Shown here: positions 164-28,167 of the stretch, piece after piece
How the letters are laid out: every line of letters begins with the position of its first letter
Position numbering within the stretch: the first letter of the stretch is position 1
Source: Gammaproteobacteria bacterium
GTDB lineage: Bacteria > Pseudomonadota > Gammaproteobacteria > Xanthomonadales > Wenzhouxiangellaceae
Direction of reading: 5' to 3'
Length of the DNA: 35,913 nucleotides
Assembly (NCBI GenBank): GCA_003567685.1
Contig: PWYW01000021.1
Coordinates: forward strand, 1 to 35,913
The notes under the pieces: model-generated
The model's input: the letters and a program-made list of their open reading frames with translations, nothing else
The model's database searches: none
Told to the model about the DNA's origin: nothing
Made by a program: the position numbers and the translations under genes

Positions 164-1471
164 TTAGCGCCGGTCTTTGCCAAGCCCCTGCAGCCGGGCC
201 TTGAGGCGGTCCAGCAAGAGGTTCCGCGCTCCACCAGGTGAGACCCGGGCCTCCAGGCTGTCTTCCGGCCGACGTTCGGCCAGACTGTCCAGTTGTGCGG
301 CAGCCGCCCGGTACGCTTCGCGGAAGGAGCGCCCCTGCTGCACTTGCTCGTTGGCCAGGTCGGTGGCGTGCATCCCCGGACTGACCGCCTTGCGCAGACG
401 TTGCCGGTTCCACTGGACCCCATCCAGCAGGGCAGGGACCAGGGCGAGGCCGGCCAGGCCGCGGCTGAAGGCCCGAATCAGGGGTGGTTTGGTGTCCTGC
501 AAATCCCGCTGGTAACCCGACGGCAGACTCAGCACCGCTTCCAGTTCGCCGCGCGCGCCGACTATGGTGGCGTGGAGCGACCGCAACAGCTCCACGGTGT
601 CCGGATTGAGCTTGTTGGGCATGATCGACGAGCCGGTGCAAAAGGCTGCCGGCACTTCCAGGTAGCCAAATTCCTGACTTGCGAACAAGCTCAGGTCCCA
701 ACTCAGGCGGCGTAGATCGCCGGTGGCGGCTGCGAGGGCATCCAGCGCACGAAGCTCTGTCTTGCCGCGGCTGTTCTGCGCGTACTGCGGATTGACCACC
801 AGACGCGGGAACCCAAGCTCTTCGGCCACGCCGTCGCGGTCCAGCGGGAAGTTGACACCAAAGCCCGAAGCCGTGCCCAAGGGGCTCGCGTCGAGCCAGT
901 CGCGAATCCGCCATGCCAGGGCAGCATTATCAACAAAGGCTTCGGCGTGACCAGCCCACCACAGGCCTAACGACGAGGGCATGGCCTGCTGCAGGTGGGT
1001 GTGGCCGGGGATGACGTGGTCGGCTTCTGCTTCGGCGCGGACAAGACAAACCTCGGCGATGACACCGCATTGGCTGGCCAGCGTCCGCAACCGCTCTTTC
1101 ATGTACAGTCGAAGGGCAACCGCGACCTGGTCGTTTCGGCTGCGACCGGCATGGATGCGGCCGCCAATCTCGCCCAACTCGTCGGTCAGCCAGGCCTCAA
1201 TGGCCGAATGGCCATCCTCGAAACGGCCATCCAGCAGAAAATCGCCCGCCTCGAAAGCCGCCCTCAGGCGGTTCATGCTCTCGACCATCTTATTGGCTTG
1301 TTCGCTGGTCAGCACGCCGATCCGCGCCAGTCCACGAGCATGCGCCTGGCTTGCTTGAATGTCGTAGACCAGCAGCTCTCGATCGAGCACGACGTCGTCA
1401 CCGGCAAGGAAACGCATGACGCGCTCGTCGACCGCCTGGCTCGAGGCTTTTTTCCAGATGTAGTCAGTCAT
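164..1471 (-). CDS. argH: Argininosuccinate lyase
   Basis: Cleaves argininosuccinate to arginine and fumarate, the last step of arginine synthesis, in the cytosol as a homotetramer of the fumarase/aspartase superfamily. The 435 residues contain AGRSRNDQVA (about 108-117), GHTHLQQAMP (about 156-165, with the catalytic His) and the family signature GSSIMPNKLNP (about 280-290, with the mobile-loop serines). The start MTDYIWKK was chosen at 1471 because GGAG lies upstream; the frame is open for 19 more codons without homology-like sequence. It is the last gene of the arginine operon, about 100 bases after argC. The usual Thr of TGRSRNDQ is Ala, and the usual Arg after THLQ is Gln, so it is a divergent member like those of Xanthomonas. 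The call is secure. Confidence 0.95.
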   Translation of the reverse strand: MTDYIWKKASSQAVDERVMRFLAGDDVVLDRELLVYDIQASQAHARGLARIGVLTSEQANKMVESMNRLRAAFEAGDFLLDGRFEDGHSAIEAWLTDELGEIGGRIHAGRSRNDQVAVALRLYMKERLRTLASQCGVIAEVCLVRAEAEADHVIPGHTHLQQAMPSSLGLWWAGHAEAFVDNAALAWRIRDWLDASPLGTASGFGVNFPLDRDGVAEELGFPRLVVNPQYAQNSRGKTELRALDALAAATGDLRRLSWDLSLFASQEFGYLEVPAAFCTGSSIMPNKLNPDTVELLRSLHATIVGARGELEAVLSLPSGYQRDLQDTKPPLIRAFSRGLAGLALVPALLDGVQWNRQRLRKAVSPGMHATDLANEQVQQGRSFREAYRAAAAQLDSLAERRPEDSLEARVSPGGARNLLLDRLKARLQGLGKDRR

Positions 1472-1574
1472 GCTCGTCACTTCTCCATCAGCAAGTGGTC
1501 GACACTGCTCAAGCCCGGCAGATGCCAAACTCCTGCAGGGTCAAGACCAGGCGGCGTCGGTTCGCGCCCCGGGA

Positions 1575-2525
1575 TTAGACGGCAATCCCGTCGAGTTCGT
1601 CGAACCCCATGGCCAGATTGATATTCTGCAGGGCCTGGCTGGCCGCTCCTTTCAGCAGGTTATCAAGAACGACTACCAGGCTGGCACGGTGCGGCTGGCG
1701 TTCGTCGATGGCAAACCCGCCGATACGGAGCTCCGCTATGCCGGCCACGTCACGGATTTCCGGGATGGCCTGGGTAACCCGGACCAGCGGTTCATCCCGA
1801 TAATGCTCAGTGAAGCGCTCAAGCAGCTCAGTGGCGCAGGCCGGCTCCGACAGGTTGACCGCCAGGGTCAACGAAATACCGCGGAAGAATGGCGCGACAT
1901 GCGGATGAAACCGAACCGGCCGACCCAAATGGGTGGATATTTCCCGCTCATGCACATGACCGGTCAGGCTGTAAGGGATCAGGTTGTCGCGCAGCCGCTC
2001 CGGGTCGTTGCGCGGCGAAGGGGTCTTGCCGGCACCGCTGTAGCCCGACACGCCAAACACTACCGGCGGCCGGGTAAGCTGGTCGCGCAGGGGTAACAGG
2101 CCAAACTGGGTGCCCGTGGCATAGCAGCCCGGGTTGGCAATGCGGCGCGAACCCCGCAGGCGATCGCGGTTCCACTCGCTCAGGCCGTATACCCAGGATT
2201 CATCAAACCGCCAATCGGCACCAAAATCGATGATCAAGGCCTCCGGATGAGCCCGCCCAATCGCTTCGACCCAGGGCTGACTGGCACCGTTGGGCAAGGC
2301 CAGCACCCAAACGCTGGCATCGACCTCGCCGACCTGTTCCGGCGTCAGCGATTCAAGGACTTGCTCGGGATCTGGCCAGTCAGGATCGATGGCCGTCAAT
2401 GGCTGGCCGGCCTGAGAACCGCTCGACGCCAGCGCCAGTTCCAATTTGCTATGCCGGGCCAGCAGCGGCAAAAACGCCGATCCGGTGTAGCCGCGGCCGC
2501 CGATCAAGACCAGTCGATGAGTCAT
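1575..2525 (-). CDS. argC: N-acetyl-gamma-glutamyl-phosphate reductase
   Basis: NADPH-dependent reduction of acetylglutamyl phosphate to acetylglutamate semialdehyde, the third step of arginine synthesis. The 316-residue protein opens with a Rossmann dinucleotide motif, GGRGYTG (9-15), and carries the catalytic cysteine in ANPGCYATG (Cys134). A later GHVHEREI segment occupies the place of the family's catalytic histidine. The start MTHRLVLIGG at 2525 lies 4 bases after the stop of the upstream kinase/synthase gene, whose last codons supply the GGGAGAG ribosome site, so translation is probably coupled. The length fits the short argC form. Confidence 0.95.
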   Translation of the reverse strand: MTHRLVLIGGRGYTGSAFLPLLARHSKLELALASSGSQAGQPLTAIDPDWPDPEQVLESLTPEQVGEVDASVWVLALPNGASQPWVEAIGRAHPEALIIDFGADWRFDESWVYGLSEWNRDRLRGSRRIANPGCYATGTQFGLLPLRDQLTRPPVVFGVSGYSGAGKTPSPRNDPERLRDNLIPYSLTGHVHEREISTHLGRPVRFHPHVAPFFRGISLTLAVNLSEPACATELLERFTEHYRDEPLVRVTQAIPEIRDVAGIAELRIGGFAIDERQPHRASLVVVLDNLLKGAASQALQNINLAMGFDELDGIAV

Positions 2526-2529
2526 GCGG

Positions 2530-3843
2530 TCACTCTCCCTGCCAGCCGGACGTTCGACTTCGCGCATCATTGACCAGGACCGCCAGCTGGTCAAAATCCT
2601 CGGTGCCGATGACATGAACAATCCACTCGCCACGACGGAAGCTGGCGTGAGCTTGTTGCAAATACCAGCCGGCAATCGGGTTGGACGCTCGGGCGCGCCA
2701 ATAGATTCGGGGGAAACGGGCGCGCATCACCTGCCAAAGTGCAGCACCCAGACCTTCACCGCGCGCCTCTGGCGTCACCACGAACTTATCAAGGTAGGGC
2801 ATGCCGCCTGCGCCATTCACAATCAAGGCAGCCGCGCGACCAGATTCAGCCAGCAGCAGGCCGGCCACGTCGCGACCCTGGCGCCAGCCGGGTTCAAGCT
2901 CGCGCCCGAAGCTCGCTTCCAGCAGACGCTCCAGCGACTGCCATTGCTCGCTGCCAATCTCGGTCAGCCAATCGATGCGCTCACCCTTGCGAATCAGCGT
3001 GCCCGCGCCAGTGTGGGTAAACAATTCCCGAGTGAGCTTGGCGGCCGAGGTGATTGACACCGAGGTTTCACTCGGCAAGCGTTCAAGCATGTCCTTGATT
3101 TGGGCCAACTTGAGTTGCATCCCTGAATGCACCCAGTCCTGGGCAATCAGTTGCTCGTAATCACCGCTGATGGAGATCGCCGAAATGATGCGGCCGTTTT
3201 GATCCAGCAGCCCACCGGTGCCAGTCAGGAAAATGATCTTGTGCGGCCGAACGGCCCAAACCAGCTCGCGCGCGGCGATGTCGGCATTGATGTTCATGAC
3301 CTGGCCGCCGGAGGATTCGCCGAGACAGGCCACCACGGGCAGCGAGCCCGAGCGGACCGCCGAGCGAACAGGATCCAGCTCGACGCTGTCGATCTCTCCC
3401 ACCAGGCCCAGTTTCTCCGGATCGGCCAGATGGGCATTGAAAACGCCGTGCTGGATGCCGCGAGCGCGCACACCGCGTGCTTCCAGCGCATCGACAATCG
3501 CCGCATTGGCCTTGTAGATCACCGGACGGGCAACGGCCATCACGGCCTCGGTCGTCACCCGCAAGCCATCGTGCTTTTCGATCGGCACGCCGGCTTCGGC
3601 CATCGCCTCATCCAGTTGCGGGCCGGCGCCATGCAGAACAATTGGCGTCAGGCCCAGCCGGTGCAGAAAAGCCAGGGCCGCGGCCATTTCCTCCAGGTCG
3701 TCGCGCAGCACGGCGCCACCGACCTTGACCACGGCAAAGCGCGATTCTTCGATGCGGGCAAACTGCTTGAGGTATTGGCGTGCCTCGCGGTTCGAGCCAA
3801 GCTGGCCAAGCAGTTCGATGACGGTCTGGCGGACTTCGGCCAT
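2530..3843 (-). CDS. argB: Bifunctional N-acetylglutamate kinase / N-acetylglutamate synthase
   Basis: A two-domain enzyme expected to make acetylglutamate from glutamate and acetyl-CoA and then phosphorylate it, covering the first two steps of arginine synthesis. Residues 1 to about 285 are an amino-acid-kinase fold with VVKVGGAVL (38-46) and the substrate loop VLHGAGPQLD (69-78). The C-terminal part is a GNAT acetyltransferase with the acetyl-CoA loop ARGEGLG (360-366), then WRARASNPIAGWY. The 437-residue length and this fusion match the NAGS-K family of Xanthomonas and relatives. No separate argA or argJ is visible nearby, consistent with the fused enzyme supplying the acetyl group. The gene lies between the EF-hand gene (33-base gap) and argC (4-base gap). 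Confidence 0.93.
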   Translation of the reverse strand: MAEVRQTVIELLGQLGSNREARQYLKQFARIEESRFAVVKVGGAVLRDDLEEMAAALAFLHRLGLTPIVLHGAGPQLDEAMAEAGVPIEKHDGLRVTTEAVMAVARPVIYKANAAIVDALEARGVRARGIQHGVFNAHLADPEKLGLVGEIDSVELDPVRSAVRSGSLPVVACLGESSGGQVMNINADIAARELVWAVRPHKIIFLTGTGGLLDQNGRIISAISISGDYEQLIAQDWVHSGMQLKLAQIKDMLERLPSETSVSITSAAKLTRELFTHTGAGTLIRKGERIDWLTEIGSEQWQSLERLLEASFGRELEPGWRQGRDVAGLLLAESGRAAALIVNGAGGMPYLDKFVVTPEARGEGLGAALWQVMRARFPRIYWRARASNPIAGWYLQQAHASFRRGEWIVHVIGTEDFDQLAVLVNDARSRTSGWQGE

Positions 3844-3876
3844 GTCAGGGCTTACCTTGCGGGAAACTGAACGCGA

Positions 3877-4095
3877 TCAAAGCTGGTATTCGATCAGCAG
3901 GTCGATCAACTCGTCTTTGGAAATACGGTTGTCGTGATTGGCGTCGAACTGGGTGAAGATTTCACTACTGGTCTGATGACCATAGCGCCCGAACAGGCAC
4001 TCGACCAATTCCTTGAATTCGCCTCGCGACAAAACGCCATCGCGGTTTTTGTCGAATTCGTCAAACAGCTTTTCAGCCAGCTCTGTCCTGTCCAT
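3877..4095 (-). CDS. Small calmodulin-like protein with two EF-hands
   Basis: A 72-residue protein with no signal peptide or membrane segment, so probably cytosolic. It has two canonical 12-residue EF-hand loops: residues 15-26 (Asp15, Asn17, Asp19, Gly20, Leu22, Glu26) and 51-62 (Asp51, Asn53, Asp55, Asn56, Ile58, Glu62). All main calcium ligands are present; in loop 2 the usual Gly at position 6 is Asn. Helices flank both loops, so it can form one complete EF-hand pair. It sits inside the arginine operon on the same strand, 67 bases after argE and 33 before the kinase/synthase gene. The ribosome site is weak and a TATAAT lies 38 bases upstream, so it may have its own promoter. Its role is unknown; a calcium-dependent effect on arginine enzymes would be speculation. 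Confidence 0.85.
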   Translation of the reverse strand: MDRTELAEKLFDEFDKNRDGVLSRGEFKELVECLFGRYGHQTSSEIFTQFDANHDNRISKDELIDLLIEYQL

Positions 4096-4133
4096 GAGGC
4101 AAGCGTTCCATGCGATTGCGGGTTTGGCCGATG

Positions 4134-4139
4134 ATTATA
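4134..4139 (-). promoter_or_regulatory. Candidate -10 element upstream of the EF-hand gene
   Basis: A perfect TATAAT on the minus strand, 38 bases before the EF-hand start codon. No good -35 hexamer is found 16-18 bases further upstream, where the sequence is GC-rich. It may give an internal operon promoter or may be chance. Confidence 0.3.
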
Positions 4140-4162
4140 GCGGCTGGCGGCCCGGCATCCGG

Positions 4163-5227
4163 TCAGAGCAACGATTGATACAAAGAGGCCGCCTTCTCAA
4201 GCTGCTCCAGACTGACCCATTCATCCACCGCATGGGCCTGGGCAATGTCCCCCGGGCCCAGTACCAGCGCGCTGATGCCTGCATCGGAAAACAAGGACGC
4301 CTCGGTCCAGAAACCAACCGGCTGGCCGATGGGCAAACGATGCCGCTCGCAGAATGCCCTGGCCGCGCGATCATCGCGACCGCCGGCCGGCAGAGGCGGG
4401 CCGGAGAAGGGAATATGCCACTCGGCAAACTCATCGGCACCGGCCAGATCCTTGAGCGCATCAAACAGGGCCTCATTGGACTGGCCAGGACCCAGCCGGG
4501 CGGAGTAATGCAGGCTGGCCTCACCGGCAATCACGTTCGATTTGGTGCCGCCGTTGATCAGCCCCAGGTTGAAGCAGGTGTGGCGGTCGGCATCGGCCTC
4601 GGCCTGGCAGTAATCCAGGGCGGCGCTGGTCCAGCGAGCCAGGCGATGATTGGCGTTGTCGGCCAGCGCGCGAAATTCCGAGGAGTGCCCCATGACACCG
4701 GCAAAGCGGCCCTTGACCGACAGAAAACCGCGATGGGCCAGGATGGCTTCGCATTGGGTTGGCTCGCAAACCACCACTTGCGCATAACTGCGGCGGGCAG
4801 AGGTCTCCAGGAACTTGCGGATACAGCAGCTGCCGGCCCCCTCCTCGTCGCTGGAAAACAGGATGGCCATGGGTGCCTGGCTGGCTTCGGCCACGGCCAG
4901 CAGGGCTGCGGCCGCGCCCTTGATGTCGCAGACCCCGCGACCGTAGGCCCGACCGTCCTCGACAGTCAACTCCAGCGGCGGACGGGTCCAGCCGGGGCCA
5001 ATCGGCACCGTGTCGAGATGGCAGTTGAACAGCAGTGTCGGCTGGCCGCGCCGGGCGTGCAGGTTGACGTGACCGTCGCTGTAATCGTTGATCTCGACAT
5101 CGAAACCGGCGGCCTCGAGCCGCTCGCGGCAATACCCGAACATCGACGCCTCGCCATCAAACGCGCGCGGCGGATTCTGGCTGTCGCAGGCAATCAGCGC
5201 ATCCAGATGCTCAAGAATCTTTTTCAT
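4163..5227 (-). CDS. argE: N-acetylcitrulline deacetylase (ArgE-like, M20 family)
   Basis: A zinc/cobalt M20 amidohydrolase of 354 residues. Metal-site motifs are in order: NCHLDTVP (His70, Asp72), GVCDIKG (Asp101) and SSDEEGAG (Glu128 and Glu129, catalytic base and ligand), followed by the dimerisation domain and a C-terminal return to the catalytic domain. In the family it resembles acetylornithine deacetylase. The neighbouring acetylornithine carbamoyltransferase implies that its substrate here is N-acetylcitrulline, released as citrulline for argG. That assignment rests on context plus the Xanthomonas pathway, not on a diagnostic residue. Start MKKILEHL at 5227. The upstream gap to argG is filled by an inverted-repeat element. 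Confidence 0.92.
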   Translation of the reverse strand: MKKILEHLDALIACDSQNPPRAFDGEASMFGYCRERLEAAGFDVEINDYSDGHVNLHARRGQPTLLFNCHLDTVPIGPGWTRPPLELTVEDGRAYGRGVCDIKGAAAALLAVAEASQAPMAILFSSDEEGAGSCCIRKFLETSARRSYAQVVVCEPTQCEAILAHRGFLSVKGRFAGVMGHSSEFRALADNANHRLARWTSAALDYCQAEADADRHTCFNLGLINGGTKSNVIAGEASLHYSARLGPGQSNEALFDALKDLAGADEFAEWHIPFSGPPLPAGGRDDRAARAFCERHRLPIGQPVGFWTEASLFSDAGISALVLGPGDIAQAHAVDEWVSLEQLEKAASLYQSLL

Positions 5228-5247
5228 GTCCCCACTCTACAAGCTGG

Positions 5248-5454
5248 ACTAACCGCAAAGACGCGAAAAGCGCAAAGAGAAGCTCGATTTGCTGGTCGCC
5301 GCATGATCAAACGACGGGATCGGGTCGAGCTTGATGTTTCAGGACTGCTGGTCCAGCGTTGGATCACTGTAAATCTCGGGCCGTTCAGCGAGCCCGGCAA
5401 GGATCGTTTGCCCCGCAGCCCTTTCTTCGCGCCCTTTGCGCCTTCGCGGTTAGT
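5248..5454. repeat. 207-bp intergenic element with 36-bp imperfect inverted repeats
   Basis: The left arm 5248-5283 (begins ACTAACCGCAAAGACGCG) and the right arm 5419-5454 (its reverse complement begins ACTAACCGCGAAGGCGCA) match at most positions, and nearly all differences are A/G transitions. The 135-base interior has no credible ORF. The element fills the argG-argE gap, and its right end abuts the argG stop codon. It looks like a small non-autonomous palindromic or MITE-like repeat. No target-site duplication was identified. Confidence 0.6.
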
Positions 5455-6650
5455 CATTTCCTGACTCGGGCGGCAAGGGTGGAGGACTGGCCGATCAGTT
5501 TGACAAAGCCTTCGGCTTCTTCCGGCGTCCACGAGGCCGACTGGGCGTAGACCGAGTCGGGGTCTTGCAGCAGGTAGCGTGAACCCACGGCCACCGGCAG
5601 CACCGAGCCGCCATCGGTGGCCAGACGCACCACGCCGGTGACAAATCGGTTGGCACTTTCGAAGCAGGCTTCCAGATCGGCCTTGTGCGGCTCGAAGAAG
5701 AAGCCGGTATAGACCAGTTCCGCCCAGCGGTTGGCCAGGGTTTGCTGGAACTGGTTCTGCAAGCGGGTGTTGACCGCTTCGCGCAGGGCGCGCTGGGCAA
5801 TCATCAGGCCGTCCACGCCGGGGCACTCAAACACGATACGACCCTTGAGGCCAATCGATACATCACCGGTGTAGACGTGGCGGCCCACGCCGTAGGCACC
5901 CAGCCGATGATTCAACTCGGCCAGCAGCGCCGGGCCATCCATTGGTTCGCCATCCAGGCTGACCGCCCGCCCGGCTTCGAAACCAAGCGTCAGTTCCAGA
6001 CGCTGGGCCGGCCATTCGGCGCGCGGTCGACACCAGACGTGGGTGTCGTCGCCTGGCACGCCGAACTCGTCGATCTCCTGGCCCGACAACGTCACGCCCA
6101 GCAGGTTTTCGTTGATCGAATAGCAACTGTTGGAGGTCGGCACCTCGATACCGGCCTTGGCCATCAGTTCCAGTTCATGCGCACGCACATTGCTGGTCTC
6201 GCGCTGCAGTTCGCGAATCGGTGCGTGGATCACATAATCGCCCAGCGAGCGCACCGACTGGTCAAAACGCAGCTGGTCGTTGCCCATGCCGGTGCAACCG
6301 TGGGCAAAGTGCTTCGTGCCCAGCTCGTCGGCCAATTTCAGGCACTGCTGGACAATCACGTAGCGGTCGGAACACAGCATCGGGTACTGCTCGAGCATCC
6401 GCGCGCCCGACCACAGCAGCGGCACGACAAACTGGTCCCACAGCGGCTGGGCAGCGTCCAGCTCGTGATGCCTGGCCGCGCCCAGGGCCCGGGCTCGCTC
6501 GGCAATCCAGGCCTTCTGCTCACTGCTGATACCGCCGGTATCGACAAAGGCCGTATGTACCTCATAACCCTGTTCCTTCAGGGCCAGCACGCAGTAACTG
6601 GTGTCGAGTCCGCCGGAAAAGGCGAGAACGATGGCTTTTTGGTCGGTCAT
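5454..6650 (-). CDS. argG: Argininosuccinate synthase
   Basis: ATP-dependent joining of citrulline and aspartate to argininosuccinate, in the cytosol. The 398-residue protein begins with the PP-loop nucleotide motif AFSGGLDTSYC (10-20) and carries the ArgG segments GCTGMGNDQLRF and PTSNSCYSINENLLG. The frame is open further upstream, but MTDQKAIV at 6650 is chosen because the ATP-binding strand starts there and AAGGA precedes it; the 30 extra codons upstream are encoded by a low-complexity heptamer tract. It is the second gene of the operon, between argF' and argE. Confidence 0.95.
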   Translation of the reverse strand: MTDQKAIVLAFSGGLDTSYCVLALKEQGYEVHTAFVDTGGISSEQKAWIAERARALGAARHHELDAAQPLWDQFVVPLLWSGARMLEQYPMLCSDRYVIVQQCLKLADELGTKHFAHGCTGMGNDQLRFDQSVRSLGDYVIHAPIRELQRETSNVRAHELELMAKAGIEVPTSNSCYSINENLLGVTLSGQEIDEFGVPGDDTHVWCRPRAEWPAQRLELTLGFEAGRAVSLDGEPMDGPALLAELNHRLGAYGVGRHVYTGDVSIGLKGRIVFECPGVDGLMIAQRALREAVNTRLQNQFQQTLANRWAELVYTGFFFEPHKADLEACFESANRFVTGVVRLATDGGSVLPVAVGSRYLLQDPDSVYAQSASWTPEEAEGFVKLIGQSSTLAARVRK

Positions 6651-6666
6651 TGAAAAATCCTTGAAT

Positions 6667-6747
6667 GAAGACGGGGAGACGTGAGGCGGAAGACGGGAAA
6701 GGAATAGGCGCTTTTCCCTTTCACCTTTTTTACCTTTCACCTTTCCC
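6667..6747. repeat. Seven-base-period low-complexity tract, with opposed halves
   Basis: The segment 6667-6705 reads as degenerate purine-rich heptads (GAAGACG, GGGAGAC, GTGAGGC, GGAAGAC, GGGAAAG). The segment 6711-6747 reads as CTTTTCC, CTTTCAC, CTTTTTTAC, CTTTCAC, CTTTCCC. The halves are partly complementary and could fold together. The tract fills the argF'-argG junction and reaches into the end of argF'. The same heptad type recurs at 35849-35890. Confidence 0.6.
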
Positions 6748-7746
6748 CATCAGTTCGAGCATCAGGGCTTTCTGGACGTGCAGGCGGTTTTCGGCTTCGT
6801 CCAGGGCCACGCAGTAATCGGCGTCCATCACTTCATCAGTGGCCTTGATGTTGCGCCGCAGCGGCAGGCAGTGACTGAAACGCGCCTGGTTGGTCAGGGC
6901 CATCTTGGCGCCATCGACCATGAAGTGGCGATAGGGCTCGCGCAGCTTCGCCTCTTCCTCCGGTCGACCGTAAAACGGCAGGGCACCCCAGCTCTTGGCA
7001 TAGACAAAGTCGGCGCCGCGGTAGGCCGATTCAATATCGCGGGTGATTTCCAATGAACTGCCCGACTGCTCCACCTGCTCGTAGGCCGCGTCCATGAATT
7101 GCTCGTCGAGCAGATAGGCATTGTCGGGAACCAGCAGCTCGACGTTCATGCCGAACTTGCTGGCAATCAGCAGGGCCGAGTTGGCCACCGCGGTATTGAG
7201 CGGGCGCGGATGCCAGGTCCAGGTCAGCAGGAATTTCTTGCCGTCGGGCTGGCCGATATGGTCCTGGATGGTCCGCATCAGGGCCAGTTCCTGGCAGGGG
7301 TGAACAATGGTTTCCATATTGATGACCGGCACCGAGGCGTGAGCGGCCAGCGCCTTGATCACCCGATCCTGACGATCATGCGACCAGTCCTTGAACAGCG
7401 GGAAGGCGCGCAGGCCAATGGCCGAGCAGTAGCGCGACAGCACGCCGGCCCCCTCGGCGATGTGCTCTTCGGCTTCACCGTCCATGACGACCTTTGGCTC
7501 GAACTCGATCCCCCAGGCCGCCTTGCCCGGCTCCAACACTACGGCATGGGCGCCCAACTGAAAGGCGCCAATCTCGAACGAGGAGCGCGTTCTGAGCGAG
7601 GGGTTGAGGAACAACAGGGCCACGGCCTGGCCTTGAAGCGCCTGGCGGATTGGCTGGCGACGCAGCTCGGCGGCTGAATCCAGCAGCGATTGCAACTCAT
7701 CGCGCGACCAGTCGACAGTGGACAGAAAGTGGCGGGGCTTGCTCAT
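6730..7746 (-). CDS. argF': N-acetylornithine carbamoyltransferase
   Basis: Transfers a carbamoyl group from carbamoyl phosphate to N-acetylornithine, giving N-acetylcitrulline; this is the Xanthomonas-type variant of ornithine carbamoyltransferase. The 338-residue protein has the carbamoyl-phosphate loop FLNPSLRTRSSFE (about 46-58) and HCLPLRRNIK (291-300), whose final lysine aligns with the modified lysine of the Xanthomonas enzyme. WGIEFEP then MDGEAEE (Trp78, Glu93) matches the Trp/Glu pair that reads the acetyl group in that family, so acetylornithine rather than ornithine is expected. Start MSKPRHFL at 7746; a TTG nine codons upstream is less likely. The last residues (MGKGER) are encoded inside the heptamer tract. 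It is the first gene of the operon; no convincing promoter or ArgR box was recognised upstream. Confidence 0.93.
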   Translation of the reverse strand: MSKPRHFLSTVDWSRDELQSLLDSAAELRRQPIRQALQGQAVALLFLNPSLRTRSSFEIGAFQLGAHAVVLEPGKAAWGIEFEPKVVMDGEAEEHIAEGAGVLSRYCSAIGLRAFPLFKDWSHDRQDRVIKALAAHASVPVINMETIVHPCQELALMRTIQDHIGQPDGKKFLLTWTWHPRPLNTAVANSALLIASKFGMNVELLVPDNAYLLDEQFMDAAYEQVEQSGSSLEITRDIESAYRGADFVYAKSWGALPFYGRPEEEAKLREPYRHFMVDGAKMALTNQARFSHCLPLRRNIKATDEVMDADYCVALDEAENRLHVQKALMLELMGKGER

Positions 7747-7918
7747 GGCACAACTCGGGGCATCAGGGCACAAGGCTTTAGGATACTATCAAGCGGGCAG
7801 TTGGATTGCGCCCGGGGCCAGTGAGTTCAGGGAATCGGCTCACCTGCCATCGACGTTGTGCGTCGACGCGACATACAAATGAAAATTCAATTGGAGGAGA
7901 AAGCGTAGGGGTTTTGAA

Positions 7919-22375: not shown

Positions 22376-23920
22376 ATGACCGCACAAAAAACCCGCCGGG
22401 CCCTGCTCAGCGTTTCCGACAAGACCGGCCTGGTCAACCTGGGCCAGGCGCTGGCCGAGCAGGGCTGGCAAATTCTTTCCACCGGCGGCACCGCCAAAAC
22501 GCTCCCCCAGGCCGGTATCGCCGTCACCGAGGTGTCGGATCACACCGGCTTTCCCGAGATCATGGGCGGGCGAGTCAAGACCCTGCACCCGACCATTCAT
22601 GGCGGCATCCTCGGACGACGCGGTCAGGACGAGGCCATCATGGAGGCCAACGGCATTGGGCCAATCGATCTGGTGGTGGTCAACCTTTACCCCTTTGCCG
22701 CCACCATCGCCCGACCCGACTGCACGCTGGACGAGGCGATCGAGCAAATCGATATCGGCGGACCGGCGATGATCCGGGCGGCGGCCAAGAACCATGCGGA
22801 TGTTTGCGTGCTGTGTGACCCCTCCGACTATGCCGGAGTGGTCAACGGGCTGCCCGAACTGCCGGATGCGGCCAGCCGGCGTCGCCTGGCCGTCAAGGCC
22901 TTTGCCCATACGGCCGCCTATGACGGCCAGATCAGCCAGTATTTGTCGGCCCAGACCGATCAGGCCGCCATGCCGGGCGTATTCAACCTGAGCCTGGACC
23001 GCGAAACCGCGCTTCGCTACGGCGAAAACCCGCACCAGGCCGCCGCCGTCTACCGGCTGCGCAACAGCCCGGCCCGGGGCCTGGCGGGCACCGAACCCCT
23101 CCAGGGCAAGGCGCTGTCCTACAACAACCTGCTGGATGCCGACGCCGCCTGGTCAGCGGTCGCCCAACTCGGTGAACGGCCGGCTTGCGCCATCATCAAG
23201 CACACCAACCCCTGCGGTGCGGCCTCGGGCGAAACCGCGCTGGAGGCCTGGGAGAAGGCACTGGCCTGCGACCCGACCTCGGCTTTCGGCGGCATTGTTG
23301 CCTTCAACACGCCGGTTGACGGGGAACTGGCCCGTGTGCTGAGCCAGCGGTTTCTTGAAGTCATCCTGGCGCCTGCCTTTGAACCAGCCGCACTGGAGGC
23401 CTTGGCCGCCAAGCCAAACCTGCGCCTGATCAGCCCCGAGGGCAGCCAACCACCTGGCGTTGAACTACGCGCCATTGATGGCGGCTGGCTGGTCCAGGAA
23501 CGCGACCGGATCGATGCCTCAGCCGTGGCCCTTGAAGTCGTCACCCAGCGCGCACCCAGTGAGACCGAACTGGCCGATCTGCGATTTGCCTGGGGCGTGG
23601 TGGCTTGCGTGCGCTCCAATGCCATTGTCTACGCCCGCAACCTGGCCACCATCGGCATCGGGGCCGGCCAGATGAGCCGGATTGATTCGGCCCGCATCGG
23701 CGCCCTGAAGGCCGCCGATGTCGGCATGAGCATGGACGGCGCGGTGATGGCCTCCGACGCCTTCTTTCCATTTGCCGACAGCATCGAAACGGCCGCCGAA
23801 CAGGGCATCCGCGCGGTGATCCAGCCGGGCGGCTCGATGCGCGACAAGGAAGTGATTGCCGCCTGCGATGCCCATGACATCGCCATGGTGCTGACCGGGA
23901 AGCGGCATTTCAAGCACTAG
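22376..23920 (+). CDS. purH: Bifunctional AICAR formyltransferase / IMP cyclohydrolase
   Basis: Catalyses the last two steps of purine synthesis: formylation of AICAR, then ring closure to IMP. The 514-residue protein has an N-terminal MGS-like cyclohydrolase domain ([33 protein letters not shown]). The C-terminal formyltransferase domain has [18 protein letters not shown] (with the catalytic Lys-His), [10 protein letters not shown] and the terminal VLTGKRHF. All expected landmarks and the normal length are present, so it appears intact. It is 26 bases after fis and 77 before purD. The stop lies in the palindrome GCACTAGTGC. Confidence 0.96.
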
Positions 23921-23997: not shown

Positions 23998-25275
23998 ATG
24001 AAAGTTCTTGTGATTGGCGGCGGTGGCCGCGAACATGCGCTGGCCTGGAAAGCCGCGCAGTCGCCGATGGTTGACGAGGTGCTGGTGGCGCCGGGCAATG
24101 CCGGCACTGCCCATGAACCCAAGGTGCGCAATGTGGCCGTGGCCGCCGAGGCCATCGACGCCCTGCTGGCGCTGACCCGCAAGGAGAATATCGGCCTGAC
24201 CATCGTGGGGCCGGAAGCGCCGCTGGCTGCCGGCGTGGTGGATCGCTTCCGCGCTGCCGGCCTGAACTGTTTCGGACCCACCCAGGCGGCCGCCCAGCTC
24301 GAAGCCTCCAAGGCCTTTGCCAAGGACTTCATGGCTCGCCACGCGATCCCCACGGCAGCCTATGCCGTGGTCAGCGATGTGGAGGCCGGGCTGGCCGCGC
24401 TTGAGAAGATGGACTTGCCGGTGGTCCTCAAGGCCGATGGCCTGGCCGCCGGCAAGGGCGTGGTAATTGCCGACACCGCCGAGCAGGCCGAAGCCACCCT
24501 TCGCGACATGCTCTCAGGCCAGGCCTTCGGCGAGGCAGGACACCGCGTGGTCATCGAAGAGTTCCTGCTTGGCGAAGAAGCCAGCTTCATCGTCATTGCC
24601 GATGGCGAGAAGGTACTGCCGCTGGCCACCAGCTAGGATCACAAGCGACGCGATGCGGGCGACCAGGGCCCGAACACCGGCGGCATGGGCGCGTATTCGC
24701 CAGCACCGGTGGTCGACGGTGACCAGTACCAGCGCATCATGGACGAGGTAATCCGTCCCACGCTGGCCGGCATGGTGGCCGACGGCCAGCCGTTTACCGG
24801 CTTCCTGTACGCCGGCATCATGCTCACCGATAGCGGGCCGAAAGTACTCGAATACAACGCGCGTTTCGGCGACCCTGAAACCCAACCCATTCTGTTCCGC
24901 CTGAAATCCGACCTGGTGGCGGTGCTGAACGAGACACTCGCCGGTCGGCTTGATGCCGTTGAACTGGTCTGGGACGAACGCTTCGCCCTGGGCGTGGTCA
25001 TGGCGGCCGGCGGCTATCCGGAGGCCTACGCCAAGGGCCTGCCGATTCGCGGCCTGGATGCCGACCTTGGCGATGCCGTCAAGGTGTTCCATGCCGGCAC
25101 GACGCTGGATGAGAACGGCCAGGTGGTGACCAGTGGCGGGCGGGTGCTGTGTGTCACCGCATTGGGGCTGACCGTGGCCGACGCCCAGGCCGCCGCGCTG
25201 AAGGGCGTGAGCGCGATCGACTTCGACGAGGCCTTCTTCCGCAACGACATTGGTGGCCGGGCCATTGGACGTTAG
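23998..25275 (+). pseudogene. purD: Phosphoribosylamine-glycine ligase interrupted by one in-frame amber codon
   Basis: ATP-grasp enzyme for the second step of purine synthesis. Read through, the frame gives 425 residues, normal for PurD: VLVIGGGGREHALAWKAAQS at the N-terminus, GPEAPLAAG, the ATP-binding VLKADGLAAGKGVVI, then PLATS, TAG, DHKRRDAGDQGPNTGGMGAYSP and the metal-binding LEYNARFGDPETQ. The TAG is codon 213 (24634-24636), where the family has Gln (SSQDHK-type). The two halves are in the same frame with no indel and no other damage. The 212-residue first product would lack the catalytic metal ligands. Either one base is a sequencing or assembly error, or it is a recent nonsense mutation, or it is read through. 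TAG ends several other genes here, so the code is not reassigned. Confidence 0.92.
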
Positions 25276-27433
25276 TTTTCTGCTCGATGAGCTGAACGAC
25301 GCTCAGCGCCAGGCGGTCACCGCCACTGATGACGGCCACGTGCTGGTTCTGGCCGGGGCCGGCTCGGGCAAGACCCGGGTACTGGTCCACCGCATTGCCT
25401 GGCTGATTCGCGTTCATCATGTTTCACCGATGGGCCTGCTGGCGGTGACCTTCACCAACAAGGCTGCCGGTGAAATGCGCGGACGGGTGGCCGAGCTGCT
25501 GCAACTGCGGCCCGACGGCCTGTGGATTGGCACCTTTCACGGCATCTGCCACCGCTTGCTTCGCATGCACGCCAGCGAGGCCGGCCTGCCCGAAACCTTC
25601 CAGATTCTGGATTCGGACGACCAGTATCGGCTGATTCGCCGGGTGATTCGCGAGATGGGGCTGGATGAGGGCGAGTTCCCGCCGCGCCAGGTTCAGGGTT
25701 TCATCAACAGCCACAAGGATGAGGGCCGACGACCCAGCCAGATCGACTCGGTCGATTACAGCTTCCAGGCTCGCCAGATTGAGATCTACCGCCAGTACCA
25801 GGATTACTGCGAGCGCGCCGGCCTGGTCGACTTTGCCGAGTTGATGCTGCGCGCCCTGGAGCTGCTGCGCGACAACGACGCCCGCCGAGCCCACTACCAG
25901 GCCCGTTTCAGCCACATCCTGATCGATGAATTCCAGGACACCAACACCCTGCAGTACGCCCTGGTGCGACTGCTGGCCGGCAACCGCAACAGCCTGTTCG
26001 TGGTCGGCGACGACGACCAGTCCATTTACGGCTGGCGCGGCGCCCGGGTGGAAAACGTGGCCCATTTCAGCCGCGACTATTCGCCCGAGATGATTCGCCT
26101 GGAGCAGAACTACCGCTCGACGGCAACCATCCTGGAAGCGGCCAACCGGGTGATTGACCACAATGCTGAACGCATGGGCAAGAACCTGTGGACCGAGGGC
26201 GAACGCGGCGAAGCCATCCAGGTGTTTACCGCCTATAACGCCGAGGAAGAAGCTGATTTTGTGATTGCCCGCATCCAGGACTGGATCGAGCAGGGCGGCA
26301 AGGCCTCGGACGTGGCCGTTCTGTATCGCTCCAACGCCCAGTCAAGGCTGTTCGAGCAGGCGCTGCTGCGGGAAGACATTCCCTACCGGGTTTACGGCGG
26401 CCTGCGCTTTTTCGAGCGCGCTGAAGTGAAGGACGCCATGGCCTACTTGCGGCTGGTCCACAACCCGCATGACGATACCGCCTTCGAGCGGGTGATCAAC
26501 GTGCCGGCCCGTGGCATCGGTGAGCGCACCGTGGCCATGATTCGCGACCAGGCTCGCAGCACCAGCCAGTCGCTCTACCAGACCGCCGTCGACCTGGTCG
26601 AGCGACAGGGTTTCACGGCCCGTGCCGGCAACGCAGTGAGCGGTTTCCTCGCCCTGGTCGGTGAGCTCTCGCGCGACCTGGCCGATCAGTCGCTGGGCCA
26701 GGTGATGCAGGCCGTGGTCAAGCGCTCGGAGCTGGTCGCCTGGTACCAGAGCCGGGAACCGGCCGACCGGGCGGAGGCGCGCGAGGAGAACCTGGCCGAA
26801 CTGGTTCGTGCGGCCGATGGCTTTGGCCAGCCTTTCGAAGACGAGCAAGCCGGCTTGAGCCCGATGGCTTCCTTCCTGGCCCAGGCGGCCCTGGAAGCCG
26901 GCGAGCACCAGGCCGAGCGCTGGGAAGACTGCGTGCAGCTGATGACATTGCACTCGGCCAAGGGGCTGGAATTCCCGCTGGTGTTTCTGGGCGGCATGGA
27001 GGAAGGGCTTTTCCCCCACCAGAAATCCATCGAAGACCCGTCGCGCCTGGCCGAAGAACGCCGGCTTTGCTACGTCGGCATGACCCGGGCCATGCAGCGC
27101 CTGGTAATCAGCCACGCGGAATCACGCATGACGCATGGTCAGACCAATTTCTCCCGCCCCTCGCGCTTTCTCAATGAAATCCCGGCCGAGCTGACGGAGC
27201 ACCTGCGGCCCGGCCTGAAAACAGCGCCGGCACGCCCCGCCGGACGCAGCGGACCCGGCTCGGAGACGGGTGGCCTCAGGCTGGGCTCGCAGGTCCGGCA
27301 CCCGCGCTTTGGTTTGGGCATGGTCGTTACCATCGAGGGCCAGGGCGAGAACGCTCGCATTCAGATCAACTTTGAAGACGCCGGCCCGAAATGGCTGGTT
27401 CTGGGTTACGCCACCCTGGAAATCATTCGCTGA
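25265..27433 (+). CDS. uvrD: DNA helicase II (UvrD), superfamily 1A
   Basis: ATP-driven 3'-5' helicase for mismatch and nucleotide-excision repair. The 722-residue protein shows all SF1A motifs: AGAGSGKTR (I, 30-38), TFTNKAA (Ia), DEFQDTN (II), GDDDQSIYGWRGA (III), LEQNYRST (IV), LHSAKGLEFPLVF (V) and YVGMTRA (VI). A C-terminal Tudor-like tail contains VRHPRFGLGMV. By comparison with E. coli UvrD (MDVSYLLDSLN), the sequence DVSFLLDELN points to TTG 25265 as the start; GTG 25253 and TTG 25250 are alternatives. The start overlaps the purD 3' end by 11 bases, so the purD nonsense codon could lower its expression. Confidence 0.94.
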   Translation: MDVSFLLDELNDAQRQAVTATDDGHVLVLAGAGSGKTRVLVHRIAWLIRVHHVSPMGLLAVTFTNKAAGEMRGRVAELLQLRPDGLWIGTFHGICHRLLRMHASEAGLPETFQILDSDDQYRLIRRVIREMGLDEGEFPPRQVQGFINSHKDEGRRPSQIDSVDYSFQARQIEIYRQYQDYCERAGLVDFAELMLRALELLRDNDARRAHYQARFSHILIDEFQDTNTLQYALVRLLAGNRNSLFVVGDDDQSIYGWRGARVENVAHFSRDYSPEMIRLEQNYRSTATILEAANRVIDHNAERMGKNLWTEGERGEAIQVFTAYNAEEEADFVIARIQDWIEQGGKASDVAVLYRSNAQSRLFEQALLREDIPYRVYGGLRFFERAEVKDAMAYLRLVHNPHDDTAFERVINVPARGIGERTVAMIRDQARSTSQSLYQTAVDLVERQGFTARAGNAVSGFLALVGELSRDLADQSLGQVMQAVVKRSELVAWYQSREPADRAEAREENLAELVRAADGFGQPFEDEQAGLSPMASFLAQAALEAGEHQAERWEDCVQLMTLHSAKGLEFPLVFLGGMEEGLFPHQKSIEDPSRLAEERRLCYVGMTRAMQRLVISHAESRMTHGQTNFSRPSRFLNEIPAELTEHLRPGLKTAPARPAGRSGPGSETGGLRLGSQVRHPRFGLGMVVTIEGQGENARIQINFEDAGPKWLVLGYATLEIIR

Positions 27434-27444
27434 CAAGGAACCCC

Positions 27445-28167
27445 ATGAGCAAGCACGATGCCGCCTGGCACAAGACCATCCCCAACCGCGAACGCCTGAT
27501 TTTCGCCCTTGACGTACCCCACCTCGACCAGGCCCGCGGGCTGGTCAAGGAACTCGGCGACAGCGTCCAGTTCTACAAGCTGGGACTGGAGTTTTTCCTG
27601 AGTGGCCACTACTTCGAACTGGCTGCCGAGCTCAAGGCCCAGGGCAAGCGCATTTTTGCCGACCTGAAGCTGTTCGACATTCCGCCCACGGTCGGACGGG
27701 CAGTGGCCCAACTGGCCCGCCATGACGTCGATTTCCTCACCGTGCACGGTAATGACAGCATGCTTGAAGCGGCCGTGGCCGCGCGCGGCAAGATGGGCAT
27801 TCTGGCGGTGACCGCGCTGACCAGCCTGGACCGGGGCGACCTGGACGACCTGGGCTTTGACTGCGACGTGGAAGCACTGGTGCTGTCGCGCGCAAAGCGC
27901 GCGCTGGCCCTGGGCTGCGCCGGGGTGATCTCATCCGGCCTGGAGGCGGCTGCCCTTCGCCAGGCGGTCAACCCGGCCCTGACGGTGATTTGCCCGGGTA
28001 TCCGACCGGTCGACAATACCGATGAACAGAAACGCACCTTGTCGGCCGGCGAGGCCTTTGCCGCGGGTGCCGACTACATCGTGGTGGGCCGACCGATTCG
28101 TGATGCCGCGTCGCCGCGGGCAGCAGCCGAGGCCATCCAGACAGATATAGATAACTATTTCAATTAG
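27445..28167 (+). CDS. pyrF: Orotidine 5'-phosphate decarboxylase
   Basis: Decarboxylates OMP to UMP, the last pyrimidine step, as a TIM-barrel dimer. The 240-residue protein has the catalytic motif FADLKLFDIPPTV (the Asp-Lys-Asp array), an N-terminal IFALDVP strand and the phosphate-binding PGIRPVD with VVGRPIRDA near the C-terminus. The start ATG 27445 has a strong AAGGA site and lies 11 bases after uvrD, so it is in the same transcript. A terminator follows at 28283-28319. Confidence 0.95.
   Translation: MSKHDAAWHKTIPNRERLIFALDVPHLDQARGLVKELGDSVQFYKLGLEFFLSGHYFELAAELKAQGKRIFADLKLFDIPPTVGRAVAQLARHDVDFLTVHGNDSMLEAAVAARGKMGILAVTALTSLDRGDLDDLGFDCDVEALVLSRAKRALALGCAGVISSGLEAAALRQAVNPALTVICPGIRPVDNTDEQKRTLSAGEAFAAGADYIVVGRPIRDAASPRAAAEAIQTDIDNYFN

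Follow-up and report, generated by a model that had tools for sequence, protein, structure and literature searches.

An in-frame amber codon at a conserved glutamine of purD in a Wenzhouxiangella-like draft genome, probably a recent mutation or a consensus error

In Escherichia coli lacI, amber hotspots lie at methylated CCAGG sites, which gives one well-known route from a glutamine codon to a stop. More broadly, in-frame stop codons in bacterial genes have been surveyed (PMC7918605); the main example of that survey lies at a CAG/TAG position, and the in-frame stops that are trusted are those common to at least two species. Here we describe a purD gene, for phosphoribosylamine--glycine ligase, that carries one TAG within a frame that is otherwise open from end to end. 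Narrow literature searches found no published report of this allele.

The window, by which we mean the whole stretch of DNA analysed, is the entire contig C17 (35,913 bases) of a draft genome of 107 contigs and 2,735,550 bases that is 99.64% complete. Its nearest named relatives by purD are Wenzhouxiangella MAGs and strains, and the genome is Wenzhouxiangella-like. Far from purD, positions 164-7773 on the minus strand hold an arginine gene cluster that suggests the acetylcitrulline route, as one of its genes encodes an N-acetylornithine carbamoyltransferase (NF003384, 514.7 bits). The coordinates of purD, its parts and its neighbours are collected in Table 1.

Table 1. Features in and around the interrupted purD gene (positions in the window)
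Feature	Position	Strand	Description
purH	22376..23920	+	Intact; NF002049 3-510 of 510; TAG at the normal end
purD (phosphoribosylamine--glycine ligase)	23998..25275	+	425 codons plus terminal TAG; one interruption
N-terminal purD part	23998..24633	+	212 codons; GARS_N and start of ATP-grasp (PF01071 1-109 of 194)
In-frame amber TAG	24634..24636	+	Codon 213; replaces the conserved Gln of SQDHK
C-terminal purD part	24637..25272	+	212 codons; open and conserved 3' of the stop
uvrD	25265..27433	+	Intact; NF008743 1081.8 bits (match span 25250-27430); start probable
pyrF	27391..28167	+	Intact; TIGR01740 1-216 of 216; TAG end

Translation of the purD frame contains a single internal stop, a TAG: the product reads KVLPLATS, then the stop, then DHKRRDAGDQGPNTGGMG. 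A preliminary description of this DNA had reported the amber in the local letters GCTAGGA, with a PurD frame on both sides, and each of these statements agrees with what we see. With codon 213 taken as an amino acid, the product matches the NCBIfam purD model TIGR00877 over model positions 1-424 of 425 with 546.7 bits (cut-off 288) and aligns end to end, as query residues 1-425, with the solved PurD structures 3mjf and 1gso. The cut-off is passed only in this read-through form; as it stands, the frame stops after 212 codons, and the break falls inside the ATP-grasp domain, at position 109 of the 194 of PF01071. The genome holds one copy of purD, its other matches being weak ATP-grasp relatives; a second purD, which the preliminary description had suggested looking for, was sought in the assembly and not found. 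A purT-like bypass could not replace PurD, because PurT acts one step after it.

Comparison with relatives, which the preliminary description had recommended, bears out its view that the codon had almost certainly been CAG in the ancestor and that the interrupted position is the conserved Gln of SQDHK. All 109 relative purD loci encode Gln at this position (100 CAG, 9 CAA), a total that sums two sets in which some genomes occur twice, and this agreement gives good support to an ancestral CAG. The first set gave Gln at 94 of 94 loci and left out 15 of the 109 that are stored on the minus strand; the second, for which loci L005-L033 were re-read on both strands, gave 29 of 29 and takes in those 15. 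A search with the first half of purD matched 39 of 41 genomes, a few of these matches being partial or merely weak ATP-grasp relatives (G009, G015, G021), and the two genomes that gave no match are incomplete. TAG occurs at the amber position in none of the 109 relative loci and, as far as seen among the relatives examined, appears to be confined to the present genome.

The half of purD behind the stop looks constrained much like the first half, and clear relaxation of selection is absent. In a selection test made coarse by dS values near saturation (0.7 to 1.3 to the nearest relatives) and able to show no more than that any drift of the second half has been short, dN/dS between this genome and relatives L005, L006 and L007 was 0.132, 0.203 and 0.237 before the stop and 0.238, 0.186 and 0.192 behind it; against L005 the ratio was thus higher behind the stop (0.24) than before (0.13). 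Pairs among the same three relatives gave 0.079-0.127 before the stop position and 0.133-0.180 behind. Replacements unique to this genome among the four nearest numbered 20 before the stop and 16 behind it. At 188 columns that are invariant in 19 genus relatives, the present sequence departs at four, two on either side of the stop, and the same comparison with the relatives left out in turn gave 0 to 5 departures, so that its four exceed the number for 18 of the 19 relatives.

Other purine genes appear sound: purH is full-length, purL and purF are open without stops, and the purine pathway seems not to be decaying, as far as tested on these three genes. No other interrupted conserved gene was found in a 236 kb sample of this genome (the window plus ten 20 kb stretches, L189-L198), a sweep that is insensitive since it relies on a rough codon model, which places part of its 109 calls antisense (for example 24514-25302, minus) and gives approximate counts. 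The model yielded ten more in-frame-stop candidates, all but one of which had no Pfam match on both sides; the remaining one proved to consist of adjacent, ordinary genes for a PTS EIIA and an HPr kinase. Immediately downstream of purD, the start of uvrD is probably the TTG at 25265, placed from the MDVS beginning of its relatives, which would overlap the last bases of purD. In the relatives, uvrD has an ATG start a few bases 3' of purD.

We consider it very probable that the TAG arose from the CAG of the conserved Gln by one C-to-T change confined to the tip of this lineage, and that this change is either recent or an error, with no maintained device behind it. A consensus error or a minor-strain base in the draft assembly, which is slightly the likelier source, stands close to an even chance; it is also a serious possibility that the sequenced strain does carry a nonsense mutation, and a very recent one. 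The comparison took in one genome per species, and at that depth an error and a mutation look alike. We infer the recency or error of the TAG, having observed directly the codon, its uniqueness among the relatives examined and the intact frame behind it. If the mutation is real, PurD would be cut within its catalytic domain, the ATP-grasp domain, and the strain would be a purine auxotroph, save for leaky near-cognate readthrough. Since purD and uvrD probably overlap, expression of uvrD might in addition fall if ribosomes no longer translate the second half of purD.

Of the alternatives to a recent or erroneous change, readthrough fares best, though we think it unlikely: the amber would be decoded by a near-cognate Gln-tRNA or another suppressor, and PurD would be throttled, not lost. 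Such decoding would accord with the single-copy state of purD in a pathway that is elsewhere intact where tested and with the fact that only part of the RF1 gene is seen in the assembly, and readthrough is proposed for bacterial in-frame stops generally in the survey cited above (PMC7918605). Constraint on the C-terminal half would fit as well, but is equally expected under recent mutation or error, and the stop is absent from every relative examined. Nor does the tRNA complement favour it: an amber suppressor tRNA, raised as a possibility in the preliminary description, was sought, and no CUA anticodon occurs among the 41 tRNAs of a list that is itself incomplete (Ile-GAT and Ala-TGC are missing). 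Both Gln tRNAs are ordinary.

The amber had been attributed to a Dcm-type methylase, whose 5-methylcytosine in CCAGG would have been deaminated, and this cause we regard as very unlikely. The ancestral codon would indeed have stood in CCAGG, as AGC CAG GAT/GAC is the commonest context among relatives, and 71 of the 94 loci of the first set, or 81 of all 109, have CCAGG here. Yet the CCWGG methylase that this cause calls for did not appear: the search for C5-cytosine methylases (PF00145) gave no match in this assembly and matched 10 of 14 control genomes, a negative that only lowers the hotspot idea, because a draft assembly may miss a methylase gene. Vsr (PF03852) likewise had no match in this assembly, with 5 of the 14 control genomes positive. 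Across both strands of the 236 kb sample, CCAGG is not depleted (1592 observed against 1615.6 expected from a Markov model, ratio 0.99) and CTAGG is not enriched (28 against 34.6, ratio 0.81). Moreover, the CCAGG context is unremarkable and needs no special cause, because about a quarter of other CAG codons share it (53 of 217 in 14 other genes of the window; 5 of the 11 remaining in purD). As a separate observation, the tetranucleotide CTAG is rare in the 236 kb sample, at 0.48 of its Markov expectation.

The partial RF1 gene invites a further reading, which we judge highly improbable, in which RF1 is truncated or lost, UAG is widely read as Gln and the purD amber is tolerated as an early step towards the loss of UAG as a stop. 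Here prfA runs off the end of contig C76 (L154, C76:1-1998), with model positions 2-166 seen, and a 172-residue query taken from a relative's RF1 to cover the second half returned only prfB and three chance-level matches in the assembly. The genes 3' of prfA in relatives are, we take it, the UPF0047 gene yjbQ (PF01894) and cydA, and PF01894 has no match in this assembly either. A contig gap that has swallowed the second half of prfA together with the UPF0047 gene is the simplest reading, and the most likely. Full prfA is present in 27 of 30 genus genomes, including every one of the 14 besides this genome that are at least 90% complete. The purD amber would bear on how stop codons become reassigned only in the event of a true RF1 defect in the strain. 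The gene for the second release factor, prfB (L153, contig C1), appears to have near its start a CTTTGA site, the usual frameshift motif.

It is scarcely credible that PurD is made as two pieces, the second by re-initiation at the ATG at 24685 or nearby. In-frame ATG and GTG codons do occur at least 49 bases 3' of the stop, but the break lies within the ATP-grasp domain, a start at 24685 would drop 16 more conserved codons, and the sequence upstream of it has, judged by eye, no obvious ribosome-binding site. Outright reassignment of TAG to Gln in this organism has a negligible probability and is rejected even though the codon occupies an invariant Gln position, since TAG terminates purH, pyrF and purD itself at family-normal ends and closes 15 of the 109 codon-model calls in the 236 kb sample (14 of 108 once the amber-ended purD piece is removed), and no tRNA with a CUA anticodon was found among the 41.

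If real, then, this is a purine-auxotroph allele of one strain; chiefly, it warns that draft consensus bases can break essential genes. Its likeness to the amber hotspots at methylated CCAGG in E. coli lacI extends to the CCAGG-to-CTAGG context; unlike that system, the present assembly has neither a C5 methylase nor a Vsr match, nor a genome-wide signature. With the in-frame stops described in the bacterial survey (PMC7918605) it shares a CAG/TAG position and purifying selection on the flanks, and it departs from the trusted cases there, which recur in at least two species, in being seen in one genome only. From ordinary nonsense or pseudogene alleles it differs in that purD is normally needed for purine-free growth and in coming from a draft genome without reads; it resembles them in being a single C-to-T change in CAG, in a frame that is otherwise intact, unshared with its relatives.
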